Shown here: positions 2 to 11,117 of the stretch, piece after piece
Numbering within the stretch: the stretch's first letter is position 1
How the letters are laid out: every line of letters starts with the position of its first letter
From: Bacteroidales bacterium
GTDB taxonomy: Bacteria; Bacteroidota; Bacteroidia; Bacteroidales; UBA932
Direction of reading: 5' to 3'
NCBI GenBank assembly: GCA_017429885.1
Contig: JAFROA010000228.1
Coordinates: forward strand, 1 to 11,117
DNA: 11,117 nucleotides
Notes under the pieces: generated by a model
What the model saw: the letters and a program-made list of their open reading frames with translations, nothing else
What the model was told of the DNA's origin: nothing
Databases searched by the model: none
Position numbers and translations under genes: made by a program

Positions 2-490
2 ACTAACGGGTGGCAGAACCTCGTGGATATGGACACCTTTATCGACTGGTGGTTCGCATATGAACTTTCAGAATGTGGTGAGCCTTCGGGACCGAAAAGC
101 AGTTACATGTACCGCGACAAAGGAGGAAAGCTCAAGGCCGGACCCGTGTGGGATTTCGACTGGGGCACATTCCGGAGCGGATCGGATGTGACCCATTTCC
201 GCATTAAGAAAGCCATCTTCTACAAATATCTGTTTCAGGATCCTTCATTCGTGAAAAGAGTCAAGGAAAAATGGTCGGAAAGTAAATCTGACTTTCTCTC
301 CATCACGGGGTTCATCGACGAGATCGCCGAAAATGTCAAGGGACACGTGGATCGGGACAAGTCGAAATGGCCCATGACCACAACCATCAACTACGACGAG
401 TCAATGTCGTTCGAAGAAGCTGTGGCCACGATGAAAAGCAATTACAAAAAGCATTGGGAGTGGATGGATAAAGAAATCAATGCTTTTTAA
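2..490 (+). CDS. CotH-kinase-family protein, C-terminal part (5' end outside the window)
   Basis: The reading frame is open from the left edge to a TAA at 488-490, giving the last 162 residues of a longer protein. The stretch KSSYMYRDKGGKLKAGPVWD followed by FDWG matches the C-terminal half of CotH-kinase-family proteins, in which a 'GP.WDFD' motif follows a strand carrying 'Y.Y.D...GKL'. The first Asp of WDFD is the likely metal-binding residue by analogy with the kinase fold. Bacillus CotH phosphorylates spore-coat proteins; Bacteroidetes homologues are usually exported proteins of unknown role, so kinase activity here is only inferred from the family. The first ATG inside the window (nt 29-31) lies mid-domain and is not a real start. 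The gene converges on the lacI-type gene and its stop overlaps that gene's stop. Whether it belongs to this PUL or to a unit further left cannot be seen. Confidence 0.8.
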   Translation, partial: TNGWQNLVDMDTFIDWWFAYELSECGEPSGPKSSYMYRDKGGKLKAGPVWDFDWGTFRSGSDVTHFRIKKAIFYKYLFQDPSFVKRVKEKWSESKSDFLSITGFIDEIAENVKGHVDRDKSKWPMTTTINYDESMSFEEAVATMKSNYKKHWEWMDKEINAF

Positions 491-1482
491 TTTCTCATTG
501 AAGACTCTCTGACTATCAGTTCCATCGGTACTACAACCTCCCCGACCTCGGCTCCCGGTTTCAGGGAAGTGATGAAAGCCTGGGCGGCACGGCGGCCAAT
601 CTCGTAAGGGTGCTGAGCGATAGAACTCATCGATGGTGTCATGATTGAGGTGAATGACTCATTAGCCGTTCCTACCACACCGAAATCCTCCGGGATCCGA
701 AGTCCGAGCTCCTTCGCGGCCTGAATCGCTCCAAGGGCGGAGAAATCACCGGCGCTGTAGATTGCGTCACATCCCCTTTCAATGGCCTTCTTCGCGGCTT
801 CATAACCTTTGTTCTCGACTATGGAATCATAGAATATGATGTCCTCATCTATCTCCATACCCATATCGGTTAGTGCCTTCTTGTATCCATTCAACCTGTC
901 CCGATAGGCCAAGGTGCCCATGAAGCCTGCTATGTTGCCTATTCTCTTGTAGCCTTGCTCTATAAGATGATGGGTGCCTTCATAAGCGCCCTGGAAATTG
1001 TCATTCACTATCTTCGGCCCGGGAAGTTCATTGAATACACGGTCAAATTGAACAAGTATGGTATCTTGCCCGATATTCTCCATAATGTGGTCACACGTGG
1101 TGGAGGTACTGGCATGTGACATGATAACTCCCGCAACACGGTTGCTCCTCATTGTTTTGAGAGCTTTGATCTCATCCTCAAAATTCTCATGGCTCTGACA
1201 TATAATCACGGAATATCCATGCAAATTCAAAACAGTCTCAGCACCGCTGATAGCGTTGCTGAAAAAGGCGCGATTGATTCCCGGTACTAATATGCCGACC
1301 ACATTAGAATGCCCTTTGCGCAGACTTGAGGCAGGCTCATTTCGCTCATATCCCATCGAGGCGGCCATCTCGGAAACCGCCAACCGCGTTGATTCCTTGA
1401 CCCTCGGACTGCCAGCAAGCGCCCTCGAGACAGTCGATGGTGTCACGCCCAATGCCCTTGCGATGTCGGAAATCGTTACCAT
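487..1482 (-). CDS. LacI-family transcriptional repressor, probable regulator of the susCD locus
   Basis: A 331-residue protein of usual LacI-family length. Residues 2-46 form the DNA-binding domain (TISDIARALGVTPSTVSRAL is the helix-turn-helix). Residues 47-59 are the hinge, with Leu54 at the position that inserts into the operator's central CG step. The remainder is a periplasmic-binding-protein-like effector domain with family signatures QFDR, YRDRLNGY, GDFSALGAIQAAKELG and IPEDFGVVG. The stretch NESFTSIMTPSMSSI resembles Bacteroidetes LacI regulators. I chose the ATG at 1482 because MVTISDIA is the canonical N-terminus and an AGGAAA lies 12 nt upstream (1495-1500). An in-frame upstream ATG at 1542 would add 20 untypical residues and sits inside an operator palindrome. 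Matching palindromes upstream of this gene and in the susC promoter suggest autoregulation and control of susCD. The effector, probably a sugar or uronate from the glycan, is unknown. Confidence 0.95.
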   Translation of the reverse strand: MVTISDIARALGVTPSTVSRALAGSPRVKESTRLAVSEMAASMGYERNEPASSLRKGHSNVVGILVPGINRAFFSNAISGAETVLNLHGYSVIICQSHENFEDEIKALKTMRSNRVAGVIMSHASTSTTCDHIMENIGQDTILVQFDRVFNELPGPKIVNDNFQGAYEGTHHLIEQGYKRIGNIAGFMGTLAYRDRLNGYKKALTDMGMEIDEDIIFYDSIVENKGYEAAKKAIERGCDAIYSAGDFSALGAIQAAKELGLRIPEDFGVVGTANESFTSIMTPSMSSIAQHPYEIGRRAAQAFITSLKPGAEVGEVVVPMELIVRESSMRN

Positions 1483-1506: not shown

Positions 1507-1514
1507 CAAATATA
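1507..1514 (-). promoter_or_regulatory. Possible -7 promoter box for the lacI-type gene
   Basis: On the minus strand these bases read TATATTTG, a full match to the Bacteroidetes -7 consensus TAnnTTTG, 24 nt upstream of the chosen ATG. No clear TTTG -33 box lies at the usual 19-21 nt spacing: the nearest TTTG (1540-1543) is 25 nt away and inside the operator. The transcript would start near 1500, giving a very short leader. The assignment rests on one box in AT-rich DNA, so confidence is modest. Confidence 0.4.
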
Positions 1515-1535: not shown

Positions 1536-1553
1536 TATACAAACGTTTGTATA
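1536..1553. promoter_or_regulatory. LacI-type operator upstream of the repressor gene (predicted)
   Basis: The sequence tatacaaacgtttgtata is a perfect 18-bp inverted repeat centred between 1544 and 1545. Its core CAAACGTTTG, with a central CG, is the same core as the E. coli PurR box, as expected for a LacI-family dimer with an intercalating hinge leucine. It lies in the 114-bp gap between the lipoprotein gene and lacI, 53 nt upstream of the lacI ATG, near where the -33 region should be. Positions 1537-1554 are identical to 4802-4819 in the susC promoter. Autorepression is inferred; binding is not shown. The rest of the gap (1554-1596) contains no recognisable terminator. Confidence 0.85.
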
Positions 1554-1596
1554 TTCGCGATCATTTTATAATACTCAATATTGTTAAGAACGATTC

Positions 1597-3048
1597 CTAT
1601 ATTTTAAAAGGAGTCCGGGCTTCGGAATTAATCAAGCGAGCGGCTTTGTGGGTCTGGAAGGACACTGGGTGGTTCACAAACTCAGGCGCATTGAAAGATA
1701 GGAACAACGAGCTGTAGTAGCGCTTGGGATTACGTTGCGGCAGCATAAAAGGCTTAGCGCAAACACCGTTCTCATCTATGTGACACAAATACAGACGGGT
1801 GTGGAGCCCATCATCCCTACGACTGGAGAATACGAACCAGCGGCTGGAAGAATCCCAATTGTGGAAACTCTCCGTGTCTTCGCTGTTAACTTTATCAATT
1901 GGACGTGTTTCCCCTGTCTCAAGGTTGAGCAACCAAAGGTCGGCCTCATGGTGCCAGATCGAAAAGTTCCCATAATCTGAAAGCGTGTACATCAGATATT
2001 TCCCGTCATAAGATGGTCTAGGGAAAGAAACACTCTTATTATCCGCCTCAGCGTCGAGGACGGTCTCTATGACTTTCCCGGTCTCCCCTGTCGCGGGATC
2101 GAAATCGGTCTTTAGGAGATTATACCGGATTGACGAAAGGCTGTCAGGAATAGCTCGTGGCTTTGCCGCGCAAAAAAACAAAGTCTTACCATCAGCGGAA
2201 AAAGCGGGGAAAGTCTCCCATCTAAGATCGCCTTTAAGCGAAGGCGGCAACAAAAGCTTGCCGTTATCCACATCATATACCCCGATGTCGCTGGCATGGT
2301 CAAAAACCTCTATGATCTTGTCCGGTCCCTCATGGAAAGCTTGCCTGGTGGTGTTTATCGAATATGCTATATACTTCCCGGAGTGATGCCAATAAGGATA
2401 TACACAAAAGCCCGAGGTGCTGTCAGTCTTTGTGTCATAGGCATCGAGAGCCCCGTGAGCGCGAAGGAGTGTCGCACCGTGAGCGCCACGAATGTGAAGA
2501 CTGAAACTCTCCGGATCGCAACGATTGGACGTGTGACAGTTGACACAACCCGTGAATGACGTGTTTTCTATAAGGGCTCTCTCGCGAAAAGAAGATAGGT
2601 CTCTCTCATATATGCCCATCTTGCTATATGAGATGTAACCCGGAGCCAGCTTTCTATAAACCAAACCAAAGTCTGATGGATCCTGACTGACATATATTGA
2701 AAAAGGCTCATATGCAATCCATTTCCCCTCTTTCTTGGCCTTAACAGCGACGTTTAGGGTTTGTCCCGCTGAGGCTTTGAGCAAACGATGCCATCGTCTC
2801 ATAGGGAACCTGGTAAATGACCTGCCGCGGGATCTCAGCGACCCTGACGTCCCGGAAACAGAGACATCAATGGAATTGACCAGGCTATCTGTCACTGCAA
2901 AATCCAGCGGAGCAATCCCAAAAGGAACGGTAACTCCTTTATAATCAGGATATATCTCGGGCTCTTCCGCAACGCTGTGACCAGCCGTGGTGGAGCAGGC
3001 GGCAAGTAAAACCGCTGAAACAAGTATGATGATCGTTCGCCTAATCAT
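1597..3048 (-). CDS. Lipoprotein with CxxCH haem-type motif and PD40/TolB-like propeller repeats
   Basis: A 483-residue predicted lipoprotein. The N-terminus MIRRTIIILVSAVLLAAC ends in a clear lipobox with Cys18 as the lipidated residue. A CVNCH motif at residues 168-172 matches the CxxCH signature for covalent haem c attachment. Around and after it come beta-propeller-type repeats: HSGKYIAYS (222-230), SADGKTLFF (284-292), SYDGKYLMY (346-354) and DSSSRWFVFSSRRDDG (399-414). A TolB-like propeller joined to a single-haem-type site is therefore the best description; function is unknown. The +2 residues after Cys18 are Ser-Thr, not the acidic run seen in many surface-exported lipoproteins, so it may face the periplasm. 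I chose the ATG at 3046-3048, not the one at 3075, because it overlaps the upstream gene's TGA as ATGA and begins the signal peptide directly. It is the second gene of an operon with the membrane protein. Haem binding is an inference from the motif only. Confidence 0.8.
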   Translation of the reverse strand: MIRRTIIILVSAVLLAACSTTAGHSVAEEPEIYPDYKGVTVPFGIAPLDFAVTDSLVNSIDVSVSGTSGSLRSRGRSFTRFPMRRWHRLLKASAGQTLNVAVKAKKEGKWIAYEPFSIYVSQDPSDFGLVYRKLAPGYISYSKMGIYERDLSSFRERALIENTSFTGCVNCHTSNRCDPESFSLHIRGAHGATLLRAHGALDAYDTKTDSTSGFCVYPYWHHSGKYIAYSINTTRQAFHEGPDKIIEVFDHASDIGVYDVDNGKLLLPPSLKGDLRWETFPAFSADGKTLFFCAAKPRAIPDSLSSIRYNLLKTDFDPATGETGKVIETVLDAEADNKSVSFPRPSYDGKYLMYTLSDYGNFSIWHHEADLWLLNLETGETRPIDKVNSEDTESFHNWDSSSRWFVFSSRRDDGLHTRLYLCHIDENGVCAKPFMLPQRNPKRYYSSLFLSFNAPEFVNHPVSFQTHKAARLINSEARTPFKI

Positions 3049-4721
3049 TTGCCGTGATAAAAATAATAATACCAATAGGTTGTACCATATTTGTTTTTCA
3101 TCGCCCCCTTCGGGCGGTTAGCCCCGCGGTCACCAAAGAAAGAAACACAAAGGTCCGTGATTCCATCCGGGAGATTCCAAGGTATGCCGTCGAAGTCTCG
3201 ATGGTCCCTTGCCCATGCGAGAGCTAGAGCCTCAGCAAAGGCTCTTGAGACAACTTCCCGAGACTTATGTGTCGCATTGTAATCAGCCACGAAACCATCA
3301 AGGTTCAGGGACAGCATGTCATAGGCAAGCAAATAATCCCTGGCCATTGTGTTAGAAGAGTCACGCCCAACCAGGAGTGACAGTACCTCATGTATGTTCT
3401 CATCAGAACTAACCATGTCCTTAACCGTCAATCTGCTGCTGGATATTTGGTCTATATCATCAGAAGGGCGCCATTTATGGTAAAATAGGGTATGGCTAAG
3501 AGCCTTCATATATTTCTCAGAGACAGTTATATCTCCATTTACCAGGTTTGTCCTCGCGAGCCACTTGTAGCAGTAAGAGCTCTTTTGAAAATCGGGAATC
3601 GATTCCTGGGCCTCATAGACCAGCCTCTGGGCACTGTCGACAAGCCCTAACGCCCAATACACCTGGGCGAATGCAAGAGGGGATATAAAGTCGACTTTTT
3701 TATCCGAGATGAGTCCTTGCGGACCATTTTGGAAGCCTTTGAACAATCCGTCCGGAAATTGCCCGGTCTTGGCCAGGGCAAGATTGACGCAGGCCACTGA
3801 CACAGGACTGAGGGATGGCCATTTCTTTTTAGCCGCCTCAATAATACCATTCCAATCCTCATTCTGAGACAAGATTGTGTATTTGAGAGTTTCTTCCTTC
3901 TGGTGATTGATGTTTTTGTCCAATACAGGCCTGACAGCAATGAGCAAGGAGACTACAGCAGATACCGCCACCACAATCGCGTTGACTAAGGAGCTTCCAT
4001 CCTTTGGTAAAAAGCGCCGCAAAATTATTGGAAAAGTCGCGGCGACAAGAGCATACCACGGCTCCGGACGCACGGTTTGAAGGAACCGGTAATAATGGAT
4101 GCCCCCAACAAGGGATTTAATGGGATATTGGAAAACCCACGTCGCGGCTAGGACCGTTAAAAACAACACGGGAAGTCCTATAAAAGCCGCTTTCCAATCA
4201 CGGACCGAAAGAGACACAAGAAAAATGAGGCTCAATGGGCCGCAGGCCATATATAATAAAGGAGTAAAAACTATCACGACTATCATCCGCAAGGGACGAT
4301 CGCTTATCCTTGACACCCCGTGAGCGGCTAATAATGAAAGAATGAGTGCTATGACCACCGAGAGCATCGCGTTTTCATTGGTGTAGAAAGAGCAAAGGAT
4401 AGCCACGGGTAGAATCGTAAGGCCGAAAAGCCAAAGGGGCACTTCTTCGAAAAACCCAAGCAGACGCCGTTGGAAAGCCACAAGAAGAGCGGAAATGATG
4501 GCCGCACCCATCCAAGGATTCAAGAAAAACTGCGTGAAAAACCTCCCCAGCCAATCTGACAGTCCCCCTGGAACGGAGATAACTTCGTGAAAGTATTCCC
4601 CGGTCCATAAAAAGAGTTGGCACCTCTCTTGAAACACGAGGTGCGCCGGAACGCCCAGAGCGAGAAGAAAAGTGGCGCAAACAAATTCAGCCGCAAGAGT
4701 TATTTTGAGGTATAATTTCAC
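3045..4721 (-). CDS. Multi-pass membrane protein with helical, possibly TPR-like, C-terminal domain (unknown function, DUF6057-like)
   Basis: A 558-residue protein. The first ~265 residues hold about eight or nine hydrophobic segments, roughly at 7-30, 68-84, 95-112, 117-134, 144-160, 161-175, 178-197, 222-238 and 244-264. Residues ~275-540 are soluble and helical, with TPR-like alternation (for example SPLAFAQVYWALGLVDSAQR and SSYCYKWLARTNLVNGDITV). The extreme C-terminus is strikingly aromatic (YGTTYWYYYFYHGK). From memory this resembles the Bacteroidetes family DUF6057; I could not verify that. The start is GTG: no ATG lies nearby and an in-frame TAG is found three codons upstream. Its stop overlaps the start of the lipoprotein gene by 4 bp (ATGA), so the two are very probably translationally coupled and work together. 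It is transcribed divergently from susC across a 133-bp gap; I found no convincing promoter on this strand, but the operator in that gap could affect it. Function is not known. Confidence 0.8.
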   Translation of the reverse strand: MKLYLKITLAAEFVCATFLLALGVPAHLVFQERCQLFLWTGEYFHEVISVPGGLSDWLGRFFTQFFLNPWMGAAIISALLVAFQRRLLGFFEEVPLWLFGLTILPVAILCSFYTNENAMLSVVIALILSLLAAHGVSRISDRPLRMIVVIVFTPLLYMACGPLSLIFLVSLSVRDWKAAFIGLPVLFLTVLAATWVFQYPIKSLVGGIHYYRFLQTVRPEPWYALVAATFPIILRRFLPKDGSSLVNAIVVAVSAVVSLLIAVRPVLDKNINHQKEETLKYTILSQNEDWNGIIEAAKKKWPSLSPVSVACVNLALAKTGQFPDGLFKGFQNGPQGLISDKKVDFISPLAFAQVYWALGLVDSAQRLVYEAQESIPDFQKSSYCYKWLARTNLVNGDITVSEKYMKALSHTLFYHKWRPSDDIDQISSSRLTVKDMVSSDENIHEVLSLLVGRDSSNTMARDYLLAYDMLSLNLDGFVADYNATHKSREVVSRAFAEALALAWARDHRDFDGIPWNLPDGITDLCVSFFGDRGANRPKGAMKNKYGTTYWYYYFYHGK

Positions 4722-4793
4722 CGCTATCTAAAAATATTTTCCGTAAAATAATAAAAAAGTACACAAGAGTGATAAAAAAGATTGCAGAATCGT

Positions 4794-4824
4794 TTTGGAG
4801 AATACAAACGTTTGTATATATTTG
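4794..4824 (+). promoter_or_regulatory. susC promoter, Bacteroidetes -33/-7 type
   Basis: TTTG at 4794-4797 (-33) is followed after exactly 19 nt by TATATTTG at 4817-4824 (-7), a full match to the Bacteroidetes consensus TTTG-N19-21-TAnnTTTG. Transcription should begin near 4830, leaving a leader of about 25 nt before the ATG at 4855. The leader has no clear Shine-Dalgarno sequence, which is normal in this phylum. The spacer between the two boxes is almost filled by a perfect palindrome, the predicted repressor operator. Confidence 0.75.
4802..4817. promoter_or_regulatory. LacI-type operator inside the susC promoter (predicted)
   Basis: The sequence atacaaacgtttgtat is a perfect 16-bp inverted repeat centred between 4809 and 4810 and sharing its last base with the -7 box. 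Positions 4802-4819 are identical to the 18 bases at 1537-1554 upstream of the lacI-type gene. Lying between the -33 and -7 boxes, a bound repressor would block RNA polymerase. The same site stands in the divergent gap 81 bp upstream of the membrane-protein start codon, so it may also influence that operon. The rest of the 133-bp gap is AT-rich, with no further recognisable element. Confidence 0.87.
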
Positions 4825-4854: not shown

Positions 4855-7800
4855 ATGAAAAACAAACTCTTTAAATTCATCTTATGCCTGTCAGCGGCGC
4901 TCCTCGCGTTCGTCGATGTCGGGGCTCAGACAAGAATGAAGGTTTCAGGATCCATTACCGACGCCCAAGGCCCAGTCATTGGTGCCGCGGTTGTGGAAAA
5001 GGGGTCATCAAATGGAGCTACCACCGATGCTAACGGTAGGTACGAACTCACGGTGTCACCCAATGCGACCCTCGTTGTCTCTTGCATAGGTTATGCTACC
5101 CAGGAAGTCGCCGTTGGCGGCAGGTCAGTTATCAACTTCAATCTCTTGGAGGATACTGAGATGCTCGAAGAGACAGTTGTCGTCGGTTTCGGTACCCAGA
5201 AGAAAGTCAATCTCTCCGGATCCATCTCAACTGTCAATGTGAGCAAGCTCACCGAGAGTCGTCCTGTCGTCAGTATCGGCAACGCCCTTGTCGGTATGGC
5301 CGCCGGTGTCAACGTCACTTCCGGAAGCAATGCTCCTGGTAACGACAACGCGACCATCATGGTCCGTGGCCGCGGTACCTTGAATACCGCCACTCCTCTT
5401 GTCATCATCGATGGTGTCGAGGCCTCCATCAACTCGGTCAATCCGCAGGATGTGGAATCCATGACCGTCCTCAAAGACGCGGCCTCCTCCGCGATCTACG
5501 GATCCAGAGCCGCCAACGGTGTTATCCTCATCACCACAAAGAAAGGAAAGGCCGGCAATGTGAAGGTCGATTACAATGGCTATGTCTCATTAGAGGACAT
5601 CCGTGTTCCGAGCATCCTAAGACCTGTCAGCAATTACGCCGATTATATGGAGTATCTCAACGAGGGTTACGCCAACGCTGGAATGGCTCCCCAGTTCTCA
5701 CAGGAGAAGATAGACGAATGGCGAAACGGGACCGATCCGCTGATGTATCCAAACAGCGATTTCATCACAGATTCTTTCTCTACCGGAGTCGCCCAGAACC
5801 ATGTTCTATCTGTCACCGCAGGTAGTGAGAAGATGCGTCTTTACGGTTCGCTCGGCTACCTGGACAATCCCGGAGTCCTGCCGAATTCGGGGCAGAAGAA
5901 ATACAGCGCCCGAGTCAACTTCGAGGTAGACCCCACCAAATGGCTCTCTGTCGGCAGCAACATCAACGGATATGTCTCTAATCTGGACATGGGTGCCAAT
6001 CCTTCTTTCGAATATATTGGATCCTCATCTCCCGGTATGACATATCAGTTCCCGGATGGTCGTTTCGGAGGTATCGAGAATCCAGAGGACGATCCCCAGT
6101 CCAGCGCCAACAACCTTCTCAGGTCGAGATACACCACGAAGGGAACGGATATAGCAAACAACATCAGTTCCCGTTTCTTCTCCACGATCAGGCCGTTCAA
6201 GGGTTTCAGCGTAACGGGTTCCTATACTTATCAGTTCTACGACAAGCAGAGGAACACAACCCCGAATTTCGTTGATCTTTGGAGCTACAGGACCAATTCG
6301 ATTGTGACCAGCGGTGTCGTGAAGACCAATGCCACAAACAACAATAACAAGGTTATCCGTAAATATGCTGACGCCATAGCCAGATACGAGAATAATTTCT
6401 TCAATGACCGCTTCGGATTCAGCATAATGGCCGGTAGCTCAACCGAATCATACAGGTCAGCCAGCTTCTCGGGCACAAGATACGACCTGATTTCCGAAAC
6501 CCTTACCGCCATTAACGCCGGTACCGGAGACATGTCAGCCTCAGGTTCTTCCACGGAATGGGCGATGAACTCCTATTTCGGCCGAATCAACCTCTCGTGG
6601 GATAACAAATATCTCATTGAAGGAAACTTCAGGGCTGATGGTTCATCCCGCTTCCTCGAAGGCCACAGGTGGGGCTACTTCCCGTCAGCATCCGCCGCAT
6701 GGCGTATTTCTGAAGAGGGCTTCATGAAGGATGGCTTCTTCGACGAGCTCAAACTCAGGGTCTCTTATGGAGGTCTCGGTAACAATTCCGTGGGCAACTA
6801 TGAGGCACAGTCGATGTATGTGACCCAGAATTACTCTCTCGGAGACGCGGTTGCGGTCGGTATGGCCCAGACAGCACTTGCCAACGCCAACCTTACTTGG
6901 GAAACCACATATGTCACTAACATAGGTATTGATTTCGGAATCCTGCGGAATCGCCTGACCGGTACCGTGGACCTCTTCGACAAGGATACCAAGAACATCC
7001 TCATCAGCCTTCCCGCTCCCGCCGTGCATGGTACAGCATCCATCCCGACCCAGAATGCCGCGGAGGTGCAGAACAAGGGTATCGAGATATCTCTCGGATG
7101 GCAGGACCACAAGGGAGACTTCAGCTACAGCATCAACGGCAACTTCACTTATGTCAAGAATAAGGTCTTGAAGTTCAAGGGTGATGACTACTCGCTCTCG
7201 GGAGCCAACTACATTAAGGAAGGCCTTCCGATCAACTCACAGTACCTTTACCGCTTTGATCGCATCATCCAGACTGATGCCGACATGAAGATTGTGGAGG
7301 ACATGCTCGCCGCCAACCCTGCCGCATTCAACACCACCGGCAAGCCGGGCCTTGGCGACATGCTGTACAAGGATATCAATGGTGATGGCGTTGTGAACAA
7401 CGACGATAAGGAAATTGTGAGCGACGGCCCCAACCCGAAGTTCTATTATGGCCTGAACATCTCATTGGCATGGAAGGGCTTCGACTTCAGCACTCTTATC
7501 AACGGCGTGGGAGGAGTCACCCAATTCTGGCAGGATGGCTACAAGAATACCTCAAACGTCATGTTCGGTTGCTCAATCAATAAATACGTCGCCGAACACG
7601 CGTGGCGCCCCGGCCGCACAGACGCTACCTATCCGAAGCTGAACAACAAGGACAACAAGAACACCCAGTACTCGGACTTCTATCTCCAGAATATGGCATA
7701 TCTTAAGATCCGTAACATACAGCTTGGATATACCCTACCGCAAAGCTTTACGCAGAAGATCAGCATCGAGCGTATACGTTTCTACGCAAGTCTTGAGAAC

Positions 7801-7911
7801 TACTTCACATTCACCAAGTTCCGTGGCTTCGACCCTGAGGTCAGCGGCTTCAACTATCCGACCATGAAACATGCTCTGTTCGGTGTCAACATCACATTCG
7901 GAGGGAAGTAA
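4855..7911 (+). CDS. susC: SusC/RagA-family TonB-dependent outer-membrane glycan transporter
   Basis: A 1018-residue protein of typical SusC length. Order of parts: signal peptide (1-24, cleavage after VGA); carboxypeptidase-regulatory-like domain (~29-103, beginning MKVSGSITDAQGPVIGAAV); TonB-box-like EETVVVGFG (~105-113); plug domain (~115-230) with VVSIGNALVGMAAGVNV, MVRGRGT, PLVIIDGVE and the family signature SMTVLKDAASSAIYGSRAAN then GVILITTKKG; then a ~790-residue beta-barrel. Near the C-terminus DINGDGVVNNDD (from residue 840) is the Ca-binding-like loop common in this family. No STN domain precedes the plug, so signalling to an anti-sigma factor is not expected. It imports oligosaccharides through the outer membrane with SusD as lid, driven by TonB. 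I start at ATG 4855, which opens MKNKLFKFI; the upstream in-frame GTG at 4834 would lie at the predicted transcription start. Substrate cannot be told from sequence; the symbol is used in the family sense. Confidence 0.97.
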   Translation: MKNKLFKFILCLSAALLAFVDVGAQTRMKVSGSITDAQGPVIGAAVVEKGSSNGATTDANGRYELTVSPNATLVVSCIGYATQEVAVGGRSVINFNLLEDTEMLEETVVVGFGTQKKVNLSGSISTVNVSKLTESRPVVSIGNALVGMAAGVNVTSGSNAPGNDNATIMVRGRGTLNTATPLVIIDGVEASINSVNPQDVESMTVLKDAASSAIYGSRAANGVILITTKKGKAGNVKVDYNGYVSLEDIRVPSILRPVSNYADYMEYLNEGYANAGMAPQFSQEKIDEWRNGTDPLMYPNSDFITDSFSTGVAQNHVLSVTAGSEKMRLYGSLGYLDNPGVLPNSGQKKYSARVNFEVDPTKWLSVGSNINGYVSNLDMGANPSFEYIGSSSPGMTYQFPDGRFGGIENPEDDPQSSANNLLRSRYTTKGTDIANNISSRFFSTIRPFKGFSVTGSYTYQFYDKQRNTTPNFVDLWSYRTNSIVTSGVVKTNATNNNNKVIRKYADAIARYENNFFNDRFGFSIMAGSSTESYRSASFSGTRYDLISETLTAINAGTGDMSASGSSTEWAMNSYFGRINLSWDNKYLIEGNFRADGSSRFLEGHRWGYFPSASAAWRISEEGFMKDGFFDELKLRVSYGGLGNNSVGNYEAQSMYVTQNYSLGDAVAVGMAQTALANANLTWETTYVTNIGIDFGILRNRLTGTVDLFDKDTKNILISLPAPAVHGTASIPTQNAAEVQNKGIEISLGWQDHKGDFSYSINGNFTYVKNKVLKFKGDDYSLSGANYIKEGLPINSQYLYRFDRIIQTDADMKIVEDMLAANPAAFNTTGKPGLGDMLYKDINGDGVVNNDDKEIVSDGPNPKFYYGLNISLAWKGFDFSTLINGVGGVTQFWQDGYKNTSNVMFGCSINKYVAEHAWRPGRTDATYPKLNNKDNKNTQYSDFYLQNMAYLKIRNIQLGYTLPQSFTQKISIERIRFYASLENYFTFTKFRGFDPEVSGFNYPTMKHALFGVNITFGGK

Positions 7912-7952
7912 TAATCAAGTAAGTAGTATAACACGAGAAAATTCAGAAAGAT

Positions 7953-9650
7953 ATGAAAAAGAATATAATACTTACCATGGTTTCGCTCGCCGCCTTGTTC
8001 ATAATCAGTGGTTGCGAGTCACTCGATCGTTCTCCAGACAACCAGCTTTCATCGGGTACCTTCTGGAAAACAGAGACACATGCGAGGCAGGCGATTGTCG
8101 GTGTTTATGCGATGTTCAGGGATGCCAACATTTGTGGAGAGATCTTCGAAGAAGATGCCGGCGGTTTCATCGGCACCGGTTATGACCGCGGCTTCTTCAA
8201 TGTGGTCAAGGGTTCTTATAACTCTACCACTGGCGTTGTGACAAGCAAGTGGTCAGCACTCTATGAAGGTGTCGCCAGAGCAAACTCCGTCATACAGAAC
8301 GTGAGTAAGATGACCGATTATCTCGACCAGCCCACCATCGATAAATATGTGGGCGAGGCTAAGTTCCTCCGCGCGTATTTCTACAATATGCTCCTCAACT
8401 ATTGGGGAGGTGTCCCGATTTACGATGAGAGCGTTGTGGTCGCTGAGAAATTCTCCGAGATGAAAGAGCCCCGCTCCACTGCTGAGCAGGTTCGTGAATT
8501 CATTCTCAGAGACCTTGATGCGGCTATCGCCGTTCTTCCCGAACAAGGTTCGTGGGCGGCATCTGACTACGGCCGCGCGACCAAGGGTGCCGCTCAGGCG
8601 CTCAAAGGCAAGGTTCTCCTCTATGCCAAGGACTACGCTGGAGCCGCCACACAGTTCCAGTCCGTCATAAGCAGCGGCAAGTACTCTCTCTACAAGAGCT
8701 ATCCGGACCTCTTCCTTCCTGGAGGAGATGCTTCTGACGAGATGATTTTCGCTGTCCAGAATATTGGCGGAGTCGGTACCGATTTCGGTATGCCGATGTG
8801 TTTCTACATGGGTACTCGCTCCACTTTCGGTAGCTGCTGGGACAATTTCACGGCTTCCACAAGGTTCGTGGACAGCTATGAGAATCTCGACGGAACCCCG
8901 TTCAACTGGGATGATTGGTTCCCGGGCTTCAATTCAGACAACAAAGTCAAGGAAGAAGTGTTCCTTCTCCAGAACGGTTCAAGTTACCAGAATCCTGAGC
9001 GTCCCGCCCAAGTGGACAAGCTCCTTGAGATGTACACCAAACGCGATCCTCGTATGGCCTGGACCCTTATCCTTCCGTACACCCACTATTTGGGTTGGGC
9101 GTCAAATAAGGAGCGCGACATGGAGTACATCATTCCCGCCTCCGGATCCGGAAACGAGAATTACGGCTCAGTCCGTGTAAATAACTCCTGGAAGATTTAT
9201 CTCTTCCGCAAGTTTGTCCCCGAAGGAAACATGAAGGGTGCGATCAATAACCGTTCGCACACTCCTATCAACTTCCCTCTCATCCGCTATGCTGATGTTC
9301 TTCTGATGTACGCCGAATGTCTCAATGAGACAGGCAAGACGGCCGAGGCGGCAACCTACGTCAACATGGTCCGGGAACGTGTCGGCATGCCGGGAGTCAC
9401 GGCAACCACTAAAGACGAGATGTTCAAGGCTATCAAGCACGAACGCGAGGTGGAGATGGCTGCCGAAGGCCACAGCTATATGGACTACAAGCGCTGGGGC
9501 CTCCTCGAGGAACTCAATGGTGTCGCCGAGCTCAATATAGTAGGTGGTAGCCTTTATAAGCATGCCACGGCTTCCCGCGACTACCTGTTCCCTATCCCCA
9601 ATGCCGAGATCGATAAGAATCCCGCTCTTACACAAAATCCCGGTTGGTAG
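7953..9650 (+). CDS. susD: SusD/RagB-family surface glycan-binding lipoprotein
   Basis: A 565-residue protein of usual SusD size. Residues 1-21 are a lipoprotein signal ending IISGC (Cys21), placing it on the outer membrane where it caps SusC. Family landmarks in order: SSGTFWKTETHARQAIVGVY (33-52), SKWSALYEGVARANSVIQNV (98-117), GEAKFLRAYFYNMLLNYWGG (134-153) and PI, then near the C-terminus FPLIRYADVLLMYAE, GHSYMDYKRWG and the closing YLFPIPNAEIDKNPALTQNP with a final GW. These cover the SusD-like N-terminal TPR scaffold and the RagB/SusD C-terminal domain. It begins 41 nt after susC with no promoter or terminator between, so the two are co-transcribed; a weak purine run (AGAAAG) precedes the ATG. 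A strong hairpin follows its stop. Ligand is not predictable from sequence. Confidence 0.97.
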   Translation: MKKNIILTMVSLAALFIISGCESLDRSPDNQLSSGTFWKTETHARQAIVGVYAMFRDANICGEIFEEDAGGFIGTGYDRGFFNVVKGSYNSTTGVVTSKWSALYEGVARANSVIQNVSKMTDYLDQPTIDKYVGEAKFLRAYFYNMLLNYWGGVPIYDESVVVAEKFSEMKEPRSTAEQVREFILRDLDAAIAVLPEQGSWAASDYGRATKGAAQALKGKVLLYAKDYAGAATQFQSVISSGKYSLYKSYPDLFLPGGDASDEMIFAVQNIGGVGTDFGMPMCFYMGTRSTFGSCWDNFTASTRFVDSYENLDGTPFNWDDWFPGFNSDNKVKEEVFLLQNGSSYQNPERPAQVDKLLEMYTKRDPRMAWTLILPYTHYLGWASNKERDMEYIIPASGSGNENYGSVRVNNSWKIYLFRKFVPEGNMKGAINNRSHTPINFPLIRYADVLLMYAECLNETGKTAEAATYVNMVRERVGMPGVTATTKDEMFKAIKHEREVEMAAEGHSYMDYKRWGLLEELNGVAELNIVGGSLYKHATASRDYLFPIPNAEIDKNPALTQNPGW

Positions 9651-9666
9651 CGGTTAATGATCACAT

Positions 9667-9702
9667 AAAGTGGGTTACGCTTATTGCCTAACCCACTTTT
9701 TT
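9667..9702 (+). terminator. Hairpin terminator / attenuator after susD
   Basis: Perfect 11-bp stem, aaagtgggtta (9667-9677) with taacccacttt (9689-9699), loop cgcttattgcc (which can pair GC/GC inside), followed by a T run (9700-9702, then AATTTT). It sits 17 nt after the susD stop and 31 nt before the lyase ATG. It should terminate or partly terminate the susCD transcript; because the next gene is on the same strand with no clear promoter, partial read-through or protection of upstream mRNA is likely. Confidence 0.8.
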
Positions 9703-9732: not shown

Positions 9733-11117
9733 ATGAAAAGGATAATCGCTCTATTGGCTTTTTCCGTTCTCTGCATCACCCTCATCGCCAGAGAAACCGT
9801 GCAGCGCAACCTCATCCAGAAACGATACACCTTTGACCAGGTTAAGGCCGCCCTCGTGATGGACCAGAAATGGGTCCCATACCCCGCTTATGCTGACCGG
9901 GCAGGCTGGGACGCTCTAATCGGTAGCCATAAGGAAACCCTCATCAAACAAGGTGAACAATTCCTGGATTACGAGTGGAAAGTGGTCAAGGCCATGGATT
10001 ATATGGAATACGAGCTATCCGGAAACCGCAATGTGATGCAAAACCCATTGGGGGCCAACAACAGAGCCATAGGGACATTGTTCGCGGCGGAACTCGCTGA
10101 GGGAAAGGGTAGATTCATTCCCCAAATAATCAATGGTGTCTGGCATACTTGTGAGATGACTTCTTGGGCTCTCTCTGCCCACCTCGCTGGCCTGTCGTAC
10201 GCAAGGCGTTCTCTTCCGGTGAAAGGAGACAACACCCTTGAACTTACCCAAGGTGATATGTCCCAGATGTTTTCCTGGATTTACTACTATCTCCACCAGG
10301 AGTTCGACAAGATTCAGCCCGAGTTCAGCAAGCGTCTAAAGGATGAGCTTAAATATCGCGAACTAGATTCATATCTTGAGAGAGATGATTTCTGGTGGAT
10401 GGGTTTCACCGGTGGCAACGAAAACGGAATGCTCAATAACTGGACACCCTGGTGCACTTCCAACGCCATTTTAACATTCATGTTGATGGAAAATGATAAG
10501 GAAAGACTGGCACAGGCTGTTTGGAAGAGTATCAAAAGCATAGACCTTTATCACAACTATGTCCAGGGGGATGGTGGCATTGAAGAAGGCCCTTCATATT
10601 GGGGACACGCCCCCGGTAAGCTCTACGACTATCTCAACGCCTTGTACATGATCACTGGTGGAAAGATCAGCATCTTCGACGAGAAACAGGTCAGGGATAT
10701 GGGAGAATACATCGTCCGCTCTTATGTTGGAGACGGATGGGTGGTGAATTTCGCTGATGCCTCCGCTCGTGGAGGCGGCGAACTCCCCATGATTTTCCGT
10801 TATGGGAAAGCCGTTGGCAGCGATCTTATGATGGGTTATGCCGCTCAAATGCAGAAAGGCAAGCCCACCTCAGTCTCAGGAGGACTTGACATGTCAAGGT
10901 TCTTTGAGACCCTCAGATATGAAAAGGAATTCCTCGGTTCAGACAAGACATACACGCCAAGTAACTACACCTGGTATCCGATCACCGAGTTCCACTACAT
11001 GTCCAACTCGGATGGAGTCTTTGTGGCCGCCAGAGGAGGATACAACAACGAGAGTCACAATCACAATGATGTCGGTTCTTTCAACCTCTACTACGATAAT
11101 CTCCCGGTAATAATAGA
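9733..11117 (+). CDS. Secreted heparinase II/III-family polysaccharide lyase (3' end outside the window)
   Basis: The frame is open from ATG 9733 to the right edge: 461 residues, no stop reached. Residues 1-19 (MKRIIALLAFSVLCITLIA) form a signal peptide without a lipobox, so the product is likely periplasmic. Residues ~30-400 fit the alpha/alpha-toroid of heparinase-type lyases, with aromatic-rich helices, GGNENGMLNNWTPWC (227-241) and GPSYWGHAPGKLYDYLNALY (286-305). The end, RGGYNNESHNHNDVGSFNLY (434-453), is the start of the heparinase II/III C-terminal beta-sandwich, whose HNH motif is a hallmark. Such enzymes cleave uronic-acid-containing chains by beta-elimination; likely functional residues are Asn235/Asn236, Tyr289 and His442/His444, by rough spacing to known members. 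The PL family and substrate are uncertain (heparan/chondroitin-type, alginate-type or another acidic glycan). It follows susCD on the same strand, 82 bp after susD and past a hairpin. I see no strong promoter in that gap (only TAATTTTA at 9702-9709) and no operator copy, so read-through from susC is its probable source of expression. Confidence 0.85.
   Translation, partial: MKRIIALLAFSVLCITLIARETVQRNLIQKRYTFDQVKAALVMDQKWVPYPAYADRAGWDALIGSHKETLIKQGEQFLDYEWKVVKAMDYMEYELSGNRNVMQNPLGANNRAIGTLFAAELAEGKGRFIPQIINGVWHTCEMTSWALSAHLAGLSYARRSLPVKGDNTLELTQGDMSQMFSWIYYYLHQEFDKIQPEFSKRLKDELKYRELDSYLERDDFWWMGFTGGNENGMLNNWTPWCTSNAILTFMLMENDKERLAQAVWKSIKSIDLYHNYVQGDGGIEEGPSYWGHAPGKLYDYLNALYMITGGKISIFDEKQVRDMGEYIVRSYVGDGWVVNFADASARGGGELPMIFRYGKAVGSDLMMGYAAQMQKGKPTSVSGGLDMSRFFETLRYEKEFLGSDKTYTPSNYTWYPITEFHYMSNSDGVFVAARGGYNNESHNHNDVGSFNLYYDNLPVII

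Follow-up and report, generated by a model that had tools for sequence, protein, structure and literature searches.

Which genes are controlled by the LacI-family repressor that is encoded beside a polysaccharide utilization locus (PUL) of a Bacteroidales bacterium (UBA932), and to which signal does it respond? The question is raised by contig JAFROA010000228.1 of GenBank assembly GCA_017429885.1, whose 11,117 nucleotides are referred to here as the window and in which an initial annotation had linked the repressor to its own gene and to susC by two identical palindromes. The sites, their conservation, their overlap with core promoters and the gene content around them can be read directly from the sequences, and with a probability of roughly 0.8 they point to a KdgR-like LacI repressor that acts on palindromic operators at its own gene and at the susC operon of a PUL, which is likely to serve a glucuronate-containing polymer (Table 1).

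As annotated initially, the 18-mer ATACAAACGTTTGTATAT is present at positions 1537-1554 and 4802-4819 without any mismatch. The perfect inverted repeat ascribed to it holds for a 16-mer with a CG centre, ATACAAACGTTTGTAT, which is common to both sites; the 18-mer itself is asymmetric, and site 1 alone extends to a perfect palindrome of 18 bp (1536-1553). Both sites are indeed located where they had been placed, upstream of lacI and at the susC promoter, and at susC the palindrome overlaps the core promoter. ATACAAACGTTTGTAT occurs exactly twice in the window, with 0.03 copies expected, and two copies were reached in none of 200 shuffles. No further copy, none having been noticed before either, was found with up to three mismatches in the window or with up to two mismatches in the source assembly (2.24 Mb in 466 contigs, 68% complete); at three mismatches, four additional places in the assembly resemble ATACAAACGTTTGTAT. 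The 10-mer core CAAACGTTTG, which the PurR operator has as well, is represented by two copies in the window, even with one mismatch permitted. A third copy of this core on contig C263 was rejected as an operator, being situated inside an open frame of 574 aa and devoid of TA flanks.

Conservation was followed in 44 orthologous loci, composed of the window, six loci from named Bacteroidales or Bacteroidia metagenome-assembled genomes and 37 loci from further genomes of the same genus, one of the latter being a second repressor copy in a genome already counted. Usable upstream DNA was available for 43 loci; L058 was left out due to the end of its contig. The host is close kin of rumen bacteria; the record titles of three of the six named relatives refer to deer rumen, omasum or abomasum, and RUG names among the relatives presumably denote rumen genomes. 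The expected conservation of the palindrome in related genomes was borne out: the exact core CAAACGTTTG lies within 300 bp upstream of lacI in 38 of the 43 loci (37 of 42 without the window), compared to 4 of 8600 shuffles, and the full 16-mer ATACAAACGTTTGTAT is exact upstream of 11 of the 43 genes. For the 14-mer TRCAAACGTTTGYA, whose R and Y positions were set after the sites had been viewed, all 14 positions match upstream of lacI in 37 of the 43 loci, at least 13 in 41 and at least 12 in 42; among 4200 shuffled upstream regions these thresholds were reached by 0, 1, and 25, respectively. The information profile drew on consensus-matching sites alone, so that its height inside the motif is partly given by construction. 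In case of L011, the lacI operator was displaced in the MAFFT alignment, and its conservation is based on the 14-mer pattern match instead. Genome G049 contains two repressor copies (L011 and L065), which are 88% and 72% identical to that of the window; both carry the motif, one at a susC PUL and the other facing kduD.

The paralogue control comprised 40 upstream regions of LacI genes of the genus with lower similarity, of which 38 were alignable; none matched the 14-mer at all positions and one matched at 13. Several of these paralogues carry related CG-centred palindromes; therefore this type of half-site is common in the LacI family. When 200 genomes of the same genus were compared, RCAAACGTTTGY was present in 39 of the 43 with the orthologue versus 27 of the 157 without it (Fisher p 2.9e-19). 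Among 29 more distant homologues of the order, the exact 14-mer was found in two cases (46% and 48% identical, from another family) and 13 of its 14 positions in three. A coincidence, i.e., two palindromes that arose by chance or as repeats and are unrelated to the LacI protein, could draw on the frequency of CAAACG-type half-sites among LacI proteins and on the related motifs of the paralogues, but two exact 16-mers where 0.03 are expected, and their retention in orthologues and not in paralogues, make this explanation extremely improbable.

In Bacteroidota promoters the -7 element is TAnnTTTG, accompanied in Bacteroides fragilis at least by a TTTG near -33 (PMC7366714). According to the same source, 23 promoters of B. 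fragilis were the basis for the -33 element, and of the two motifs only the one at -7 was confirmed in Flavobacterium johnsoniae (PMC7366714). The susC promoter of the window reads TTTG-N19-TATATTTG, with operator 2 situated within the spacer and base 4817 common to the operator and the -7 element. A susC orthologue is present in 3 of the 44 loci (the window, L010, and L011), and the palindrome is kept in all three. The promoter of L010 is nearly identical throughout; in L011 the operator and the -7 element are kept and much of the flank has changed.

Relative to the operator centre, TAnnTTTG starts at +5 in 26 of 41 lacI promoters and at +25 in 9, with six others, including the window, deviating from both. 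In the +5 register, the -7 element is preceded by TTG at a spacing of 19 or 20 nt in 24 of 26 cases, and no other spacing from 14 to 27 nt occurs. In the +25 register, TTTG stands at spacer 20 in all nine cases, which is fixed by construction, since it is the operator's own TTTG, and hence is not independent evidence. In total, 35 of the 41 lacI promoters have the operator on the -33 element or in the spacer, a placement in the core promoter that fits repression by polymerase occlusion; the position of operator 2 in the susC spacer argues for occlusion as well. Activation by the LacI protein at one or more sites would be conceivable at the lacI gene of the window, whose operator lies upstream of the candidate -7 element; it is nevertheless very unlikely, given that the polymerase would be blocked at these 35 promoters and at susC. 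In 22 of the 35 lacI promoters of the +5 and +25 registers (loci between L049 and L085), the TA of the -7 element precedes the ATG by only 14-18 nt, so that the repressor mRNAs would be almost leaderless; the window differs in this respect.

The initial assignment of the repressor to the LacI family, with a hinge leucine, is supported by Pfam matches above cut-off to the LacI helix-turn-helix (HTH) domain PF00356 and to PF13377 and PF00532 (Peripla_BP_1/3, a periplasmic-binding-protein-like sensor). The recognition helix contains TVSR, and residues P15, S16, R20, L54, and R55 are identical in all 44 loci. Leu54 represents the hinge leucine, equivalent to that of PurR. Besides the HTH and sensor domains and Leu54, an operator at its own gene and the CG-centred even palindrome are in agreement with membership in this family. 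In LacI proteins, residues 15 and 16 set the specificity and Arg20 goes with a conserved G (PMC2978694), and for LacI regulators autoregulation in 72% and a CG operator centre in 1173 of 1303 cases are reported (PMC4052901). In the 68%-complete assembly, no match to the Pfam LacI HTH domain was found besides that of the window repressor. Its closest solved relatives by sequence (phmmer) are CcpA proteins, followed further down the list by LacI-family proteins including PurR. DNA looping between the two operators was set aside, as the phmmer alignment stops at residue 330 of the 360-residue LacI. The C-terminal tail of LacI is tetramerising, and in the window repressor it appears to be missing.

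Orthologues of the repressor adjoin genes of the 2-keto-3-deoxygluconate (KDG) pathway. In L010, lacI and a CotH gene are followed by uxaC, kdgK, eda, and a major facilitator superfamily transporter gene (best NCBIfam match: a D-galactonate transporter model, below cut-off), and KDG genes are located directly after lacI in L011, L012, and L013. Two homologues from another family adjoin kduI and kduD, one of them also uxaC, kdgK, and eda. Apart from the sites next to lacI, 29 sites with at least 13 of 14 matches were detected in the 44 loci. Of these, 14 sit 34-68 bp before kduD, four before GH28 genes, three before susC, one before a pectate-lyase-like gene and one before the gene of a kinase with 30% identity to KdgK; for six there is no labelled gene. 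These tallies are protein-to-DNA matches; a simple longest-frame caller had miscalled some antisense frames. UxaC, Eda, and KduI pass the NCBIfam cut-offs, and the names kduD and kdgK were assigned from the position beside kduI and eda. Because operators precede and orthologues adjoin KDG-pathway genes, the window repressor is best called KdgR-like, by context. This apparent membership of the KDG/uronate-pathway group was missed by the initial annotation.

In the genome of the window, uxaC is located on contig C147 (locus L089) and is followed by kdgK, eda, and the transporter gene. Between CotH and uxaC, a candidate third operator was found (GTGCAAACCTTTGTAC, L089 6994-7009), one base off consensus and in register +5 towards CotH and +27 towards uxaC. 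We regard it as a probable operator outside the window, separating CotH from uxaC-kdgK-eda-transporter. Two CotH kinase genes occur in the region: the one at window 2-490 is situated beside uxaC across the probable third operator, the other (L090 7339-8496) inside the susC-headed block. C147 overlaps the window by 290 bp (7807-8096 versus 1-290) with 98.3% identity and 5 mismatches, which suggests that the contigs were split by strain variation.

The second extension of the regulon comes from L092, a locus of the L010 genome, whose aligned DNA shows 93-97% identity to that of the window. Here the susC operator heads the co-directional genes susC-susD-PL33-GH88-GH2-CotH-PL35-kduD-kduI-DUF4861-GH95, of which DUF4861 and GH95 were named from matching genes of L012 and L090. 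The block is followed by a chorismate synthase gene on the opposite strand, and we infer that it forms a single transcript. The contig with kduD-kduI of the window's genome begins inside CotH and shows the same local gene order. The PL35-like lyase and kduD constitute one frame of 893 aa in L092 (11833-14514) and two frames in the window's genome. The initial claim that the repressor gene and susCD make up the complete regulon does not stand, given the probable CotH/uxaC-kdgK-eda operator outside the window and the lyases, kduD, and kduI added by the susC block of the relative.

The polymer is indicated by the enzymes of this block. The structures matched by the window's lyase (Table 1) were deposited with a paper on PL33, a family described there as acting on hyaluronan, heparosan, chondroitin sulfate or gellan (PMC11848413); no Pfam match was found for the part of this lyase contained in the window. 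A PL35 chondroitinase of known structure is matched by the second lyase of the susC block. The GH2 enzyme scores 1062 bits with the NCBIfam model of beta-glucuronidase LacZ4, whose cut-off is 950 bits. Because PL33, PL35, the GH2 beta-glucuronidase, GH88, and kduDI occur together, a glucuronate-containing glycan is the likely substrate of the PUL.

The susC site may also be bound while the PUL is mainly controlled by another regulator, e.g., a hybrid two-component system (HTCS) encoded elsewhere, with the LacI protein as a secondary brake. For B. thetaiotaomicron, dual control of the BT0365-60 operon by AraR and an HTCS is described, and HTCS, SusR, and extracytoplasmic function (ECF) sigma factors are the three PUL regulator types named (PMC3878776). 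No histidine kinase, AraC-type or sigma-factor domain (Pfam) was detected, however, in the 7 window proteins, nor in the scanned neighbours of L010, L012, L090, and L092, with some frames and the whole genome remaining unsearched, and we consider such an arrangement unlikely.

As to the signal, KDG or its phosphate (KDPG) is somewhat favoured as the effector, a proposal drawn from the target genes alone. With the same repressor and operators, free glucuronate, an unsaturated disaccharide or 5-keto-4-deoxyuronate could take this role instead; among the LacI regulators of B. thetaiotaomicron, UxaR and UxuR have been assigned to glucuronate or galacturonate (PMC3878776). The third operator in the window's genome, moreover, precedes uxaC, whose product acts on free uronates. 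On the other hand, kduD ranks first among the targets other than lacI (14 of the 29 sites), and the targets span the polymer-lyase branch as well as the free-uronate branch, which converge on KDG. An effector other than KDG or KDPG is thus a serious, albeit less probable, alternative.

Several observations weigh against a KdgR-like repressor acting as proposed. The loci are mutually related, and the ortholog counts do not represent independent events. The exact core is missing within 300 bp upstream of lacI in L010, L065, L079, L082, and L084, and L079 and L084 also remain under 13 of 14 matches. In L010, the closest relative, one base of the lacI operator core is altered (CAATCGTTTG, L010 9933-9946), whereas its susC operator is intact. 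RCAAACGTTTGY is still contained in 27 genomes that lack the orthologue, and counts at two mismatches in six relatives (4-5 each) are not above those of a reversed-pattern control (1-15), so that information can be drawn from near-exact sites only. The lacI promoter of the window itself is non-canonical, with its -7 element at +30 and no TTG at the usual 19-20 nt from it, the nearest being located 15 or 25 nt upstream. The third site has CC instead of CG at its centre and was seen by eye, then matched with a pattern permitting that base. On the contig with kduD-kduI of the window's genome, no recognisable operator was found, although this contig begins within that very block of genes. Concerning the pathway genes, the one called kduD passes the cut-off for gluconate 5-dehydrogenase and not that for KduD, and the one called kdgK stays below every kinase cut-off and is best matched by a model of an aldolase/kinase fusion. 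Finally, the hairpin downstream of susD may leave the genes that follow with lower expression or with only partial control by operator 2. The sequence of this hairpin is also present in L092 and L011, i.e., in three loci with the window; it was not listed by the automatic terminator scan, presumably owing to a loop limit, and was folded separately.

Binding, repression, the dimeric state, and the polymer are inferred from the sequence features, and taken together a regulatory circuit can be proposed. The repressor, probably as a dimer, would bind TRCAAACGTTTGYA in probably three promoter regions of the genome, namely at its own gene, at the susC-headed operon, and between the divergent CotH and uxaC-kdgK-eda-transporter genes. 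In the absence of substrate it would sit on these promoters and exclude RNA polymerase, with leaky expression permitting a little cleavage and import of the polymer. From the polymer, PL33, PL35, GH88, and the beta-glucuronidase would free unsaturated uronates, which KduI and KduD would convert to KDG. Binding of KDG or KDPG to the sensor domain would then release the repressor and induce the uptake operon, the KDG operon, and the repressor gene, such that capture, lysis, and catabolism are switched on together.

A more far-reaching view, to which we give even odds, is that the whole PUL, from capture at the outer membrane to pyruvate, is gated by one cytosolic KDG-sensing LacI repressor without an envelope-spanning sensor. 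The genus would reuse an operator-promoter cassette in two registers 20 bp apart, in which either the terminal TA of the operator starts the -7 element or its TTTG half-site serves as the -33 element. The PUL would have been captured into the KDG regulon when this cassette moved from kduD to susC and kduD-kduI was added at the end of the susC operon.

Table 1. Features of the window with coordinates, strand, and supporting evidence
Feature	Coordinates	Strand	Evidence or remark
CotH kinase gene, 3' part	2..490	+	PF08757; on C147 the gene start is preceded by the probable third operator
LacI-family repressor gene, KdgR-like by context	487..1482	-	331 aa, ATG at 1482; Pfam
Candidate -7 element of lacI, TATATTTG	1507..1514	-	+30 from operator centre
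Operator 1 (putatively autoregulatory), ATACAAACGTTTGTAT	1537..1552	.	Exact count; core upstream of 38/43 orthologous lacI genes; centre 62 bp before lacI ATG
PD40/TolB-like protein gene, downstream of DUF6057	1597..3048	-	PF07676
DUF6057 gene, divergent from susC	3045..4721	-	PF19529
-33 element TTTG of susC	4794..4797	+	TTG at spacer 19
Operator 2, ATACAAACGTTTGTAT	4802..4817	.	In susC -33/-7 spacer; centre 46 bp before susC ATG; kept in L010, L011
-7 element of susC, TATATTTG	4817..4824	+	Read in sequence
susC, TonB-dependent transporter	4855..7911	+	TIGR04056, 896 bits
susD, glycan-binding lipoprotein	7953..9650	+	PF07980, PF14322
Terminator-like hairpin and T-run between susD and lyase gene	9667..9699	+	Fold -17.8 kcal/mol, z -6.0
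PL33-type polysaccharide lyase gene, runs off window	9733..11117	+	PDB 8r73, 8r6z, 8r75, 8r70, E 1.3e-151 or better

With respect to the genes on the opposite side of operator 2, control of the DUF6057-PD40 pair was looked for and is unsupported; no TAnnTTTG element directed at DUF6057 was found up to 45 bp from the centre of operator 2. Likewise, no sign of repressor control over the PD40/TolB-like gene was seen. The PD40/TolB-like protein (1597-3048), which pairs with DUF6057, contains a CVNCH stretch that we take to be a possible haem c attachment motif. Close to the end of L003, visual inspection indicated another DUF6057-like start.

The locus offers a compact case of a PUL that would be run by a soluble metabolite-responsive repressor and not by a membrane sensor, with operator, promoter geometry, and effector all predicted. 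The overlap of operator and promoter bears on the open question of the -33 TTTG element, given the narrow TTG spacing (19/20 nt in 24/26) of the +5 promoters. A defined operator of the ATACAAACGTTTGTAT type could furthermore serve as a regulated part for Bacteroidales.

Comparison with known systems reveals both relatives and differences. In Bacteroides thetaiotaomicron, the LacI-family regulators KdgR (BT0487), UxaR (BT0824), UxuR (BT1434), and UxmR (BT3613) have been predicted, and the predicted regulons of KdgR and UxmR are described as including a limited number of periplasmic or extracellular proteins (Ravcheev 2013, PMC3878776). The UxaR, UxuR, and KdgR proteins of Bacteroides share one branch (Ravcheev 2014, PMC4052901). 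Like the window repressor, these regulators belong to the LacI family and are associated with uronate pathways; here, in contrast, the operator heads a susCD operon with lyases and kduDI, the two being likened by family and targets. ManR and AraR of B. thetaiotaomicron are, as proposed here, regulators of monosaccharide pathways with predicted susCD operons in their regulons, but belong to the GntR and NrtR families and are devoted to other sugars (PMC3878776). The less common design claimed initially is therefore a fair description as far as PULs are concerned, whereas LacI uronate regulators and monosaccharide regulators in control of susCD have already been predicted in Bacteroides (PMC3878776). 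AusR of Zobellia galactanivorans is likewise a repressor of a uronate-polymer PUL of the Bacteroidota that is released by a breakdown product; it differs in belonging to the GntR family and in acting on alginate (PMC8286568), while the window repressor has a LacI HTH domain and no GntR domain in its Pfam listing.

PurR and CcpA have LacI-family sequence similarity and Leu54 in common with the window repressor. They use purine or HPr co-repressors and control other genes. HTCS and SusR also control susCD operons, but are membrane regulators with a periplasmic sensor domain, none of which was encountered among the scanned locus proteins. Sensing of a monosaccharide to control polysaccharide use is described as uncommon in bacteria in a 2025 paper, which places some xylan systems under LacI-family or HTCS control (PMC12125979). 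Compared to all these systems, the parts found here are of known kinds, connected in an unusually clear and readily testable way; less usual are the regular fusion of the operator with the core promoter and the control of a susCD operon that carries lyases and ends in kduDI.

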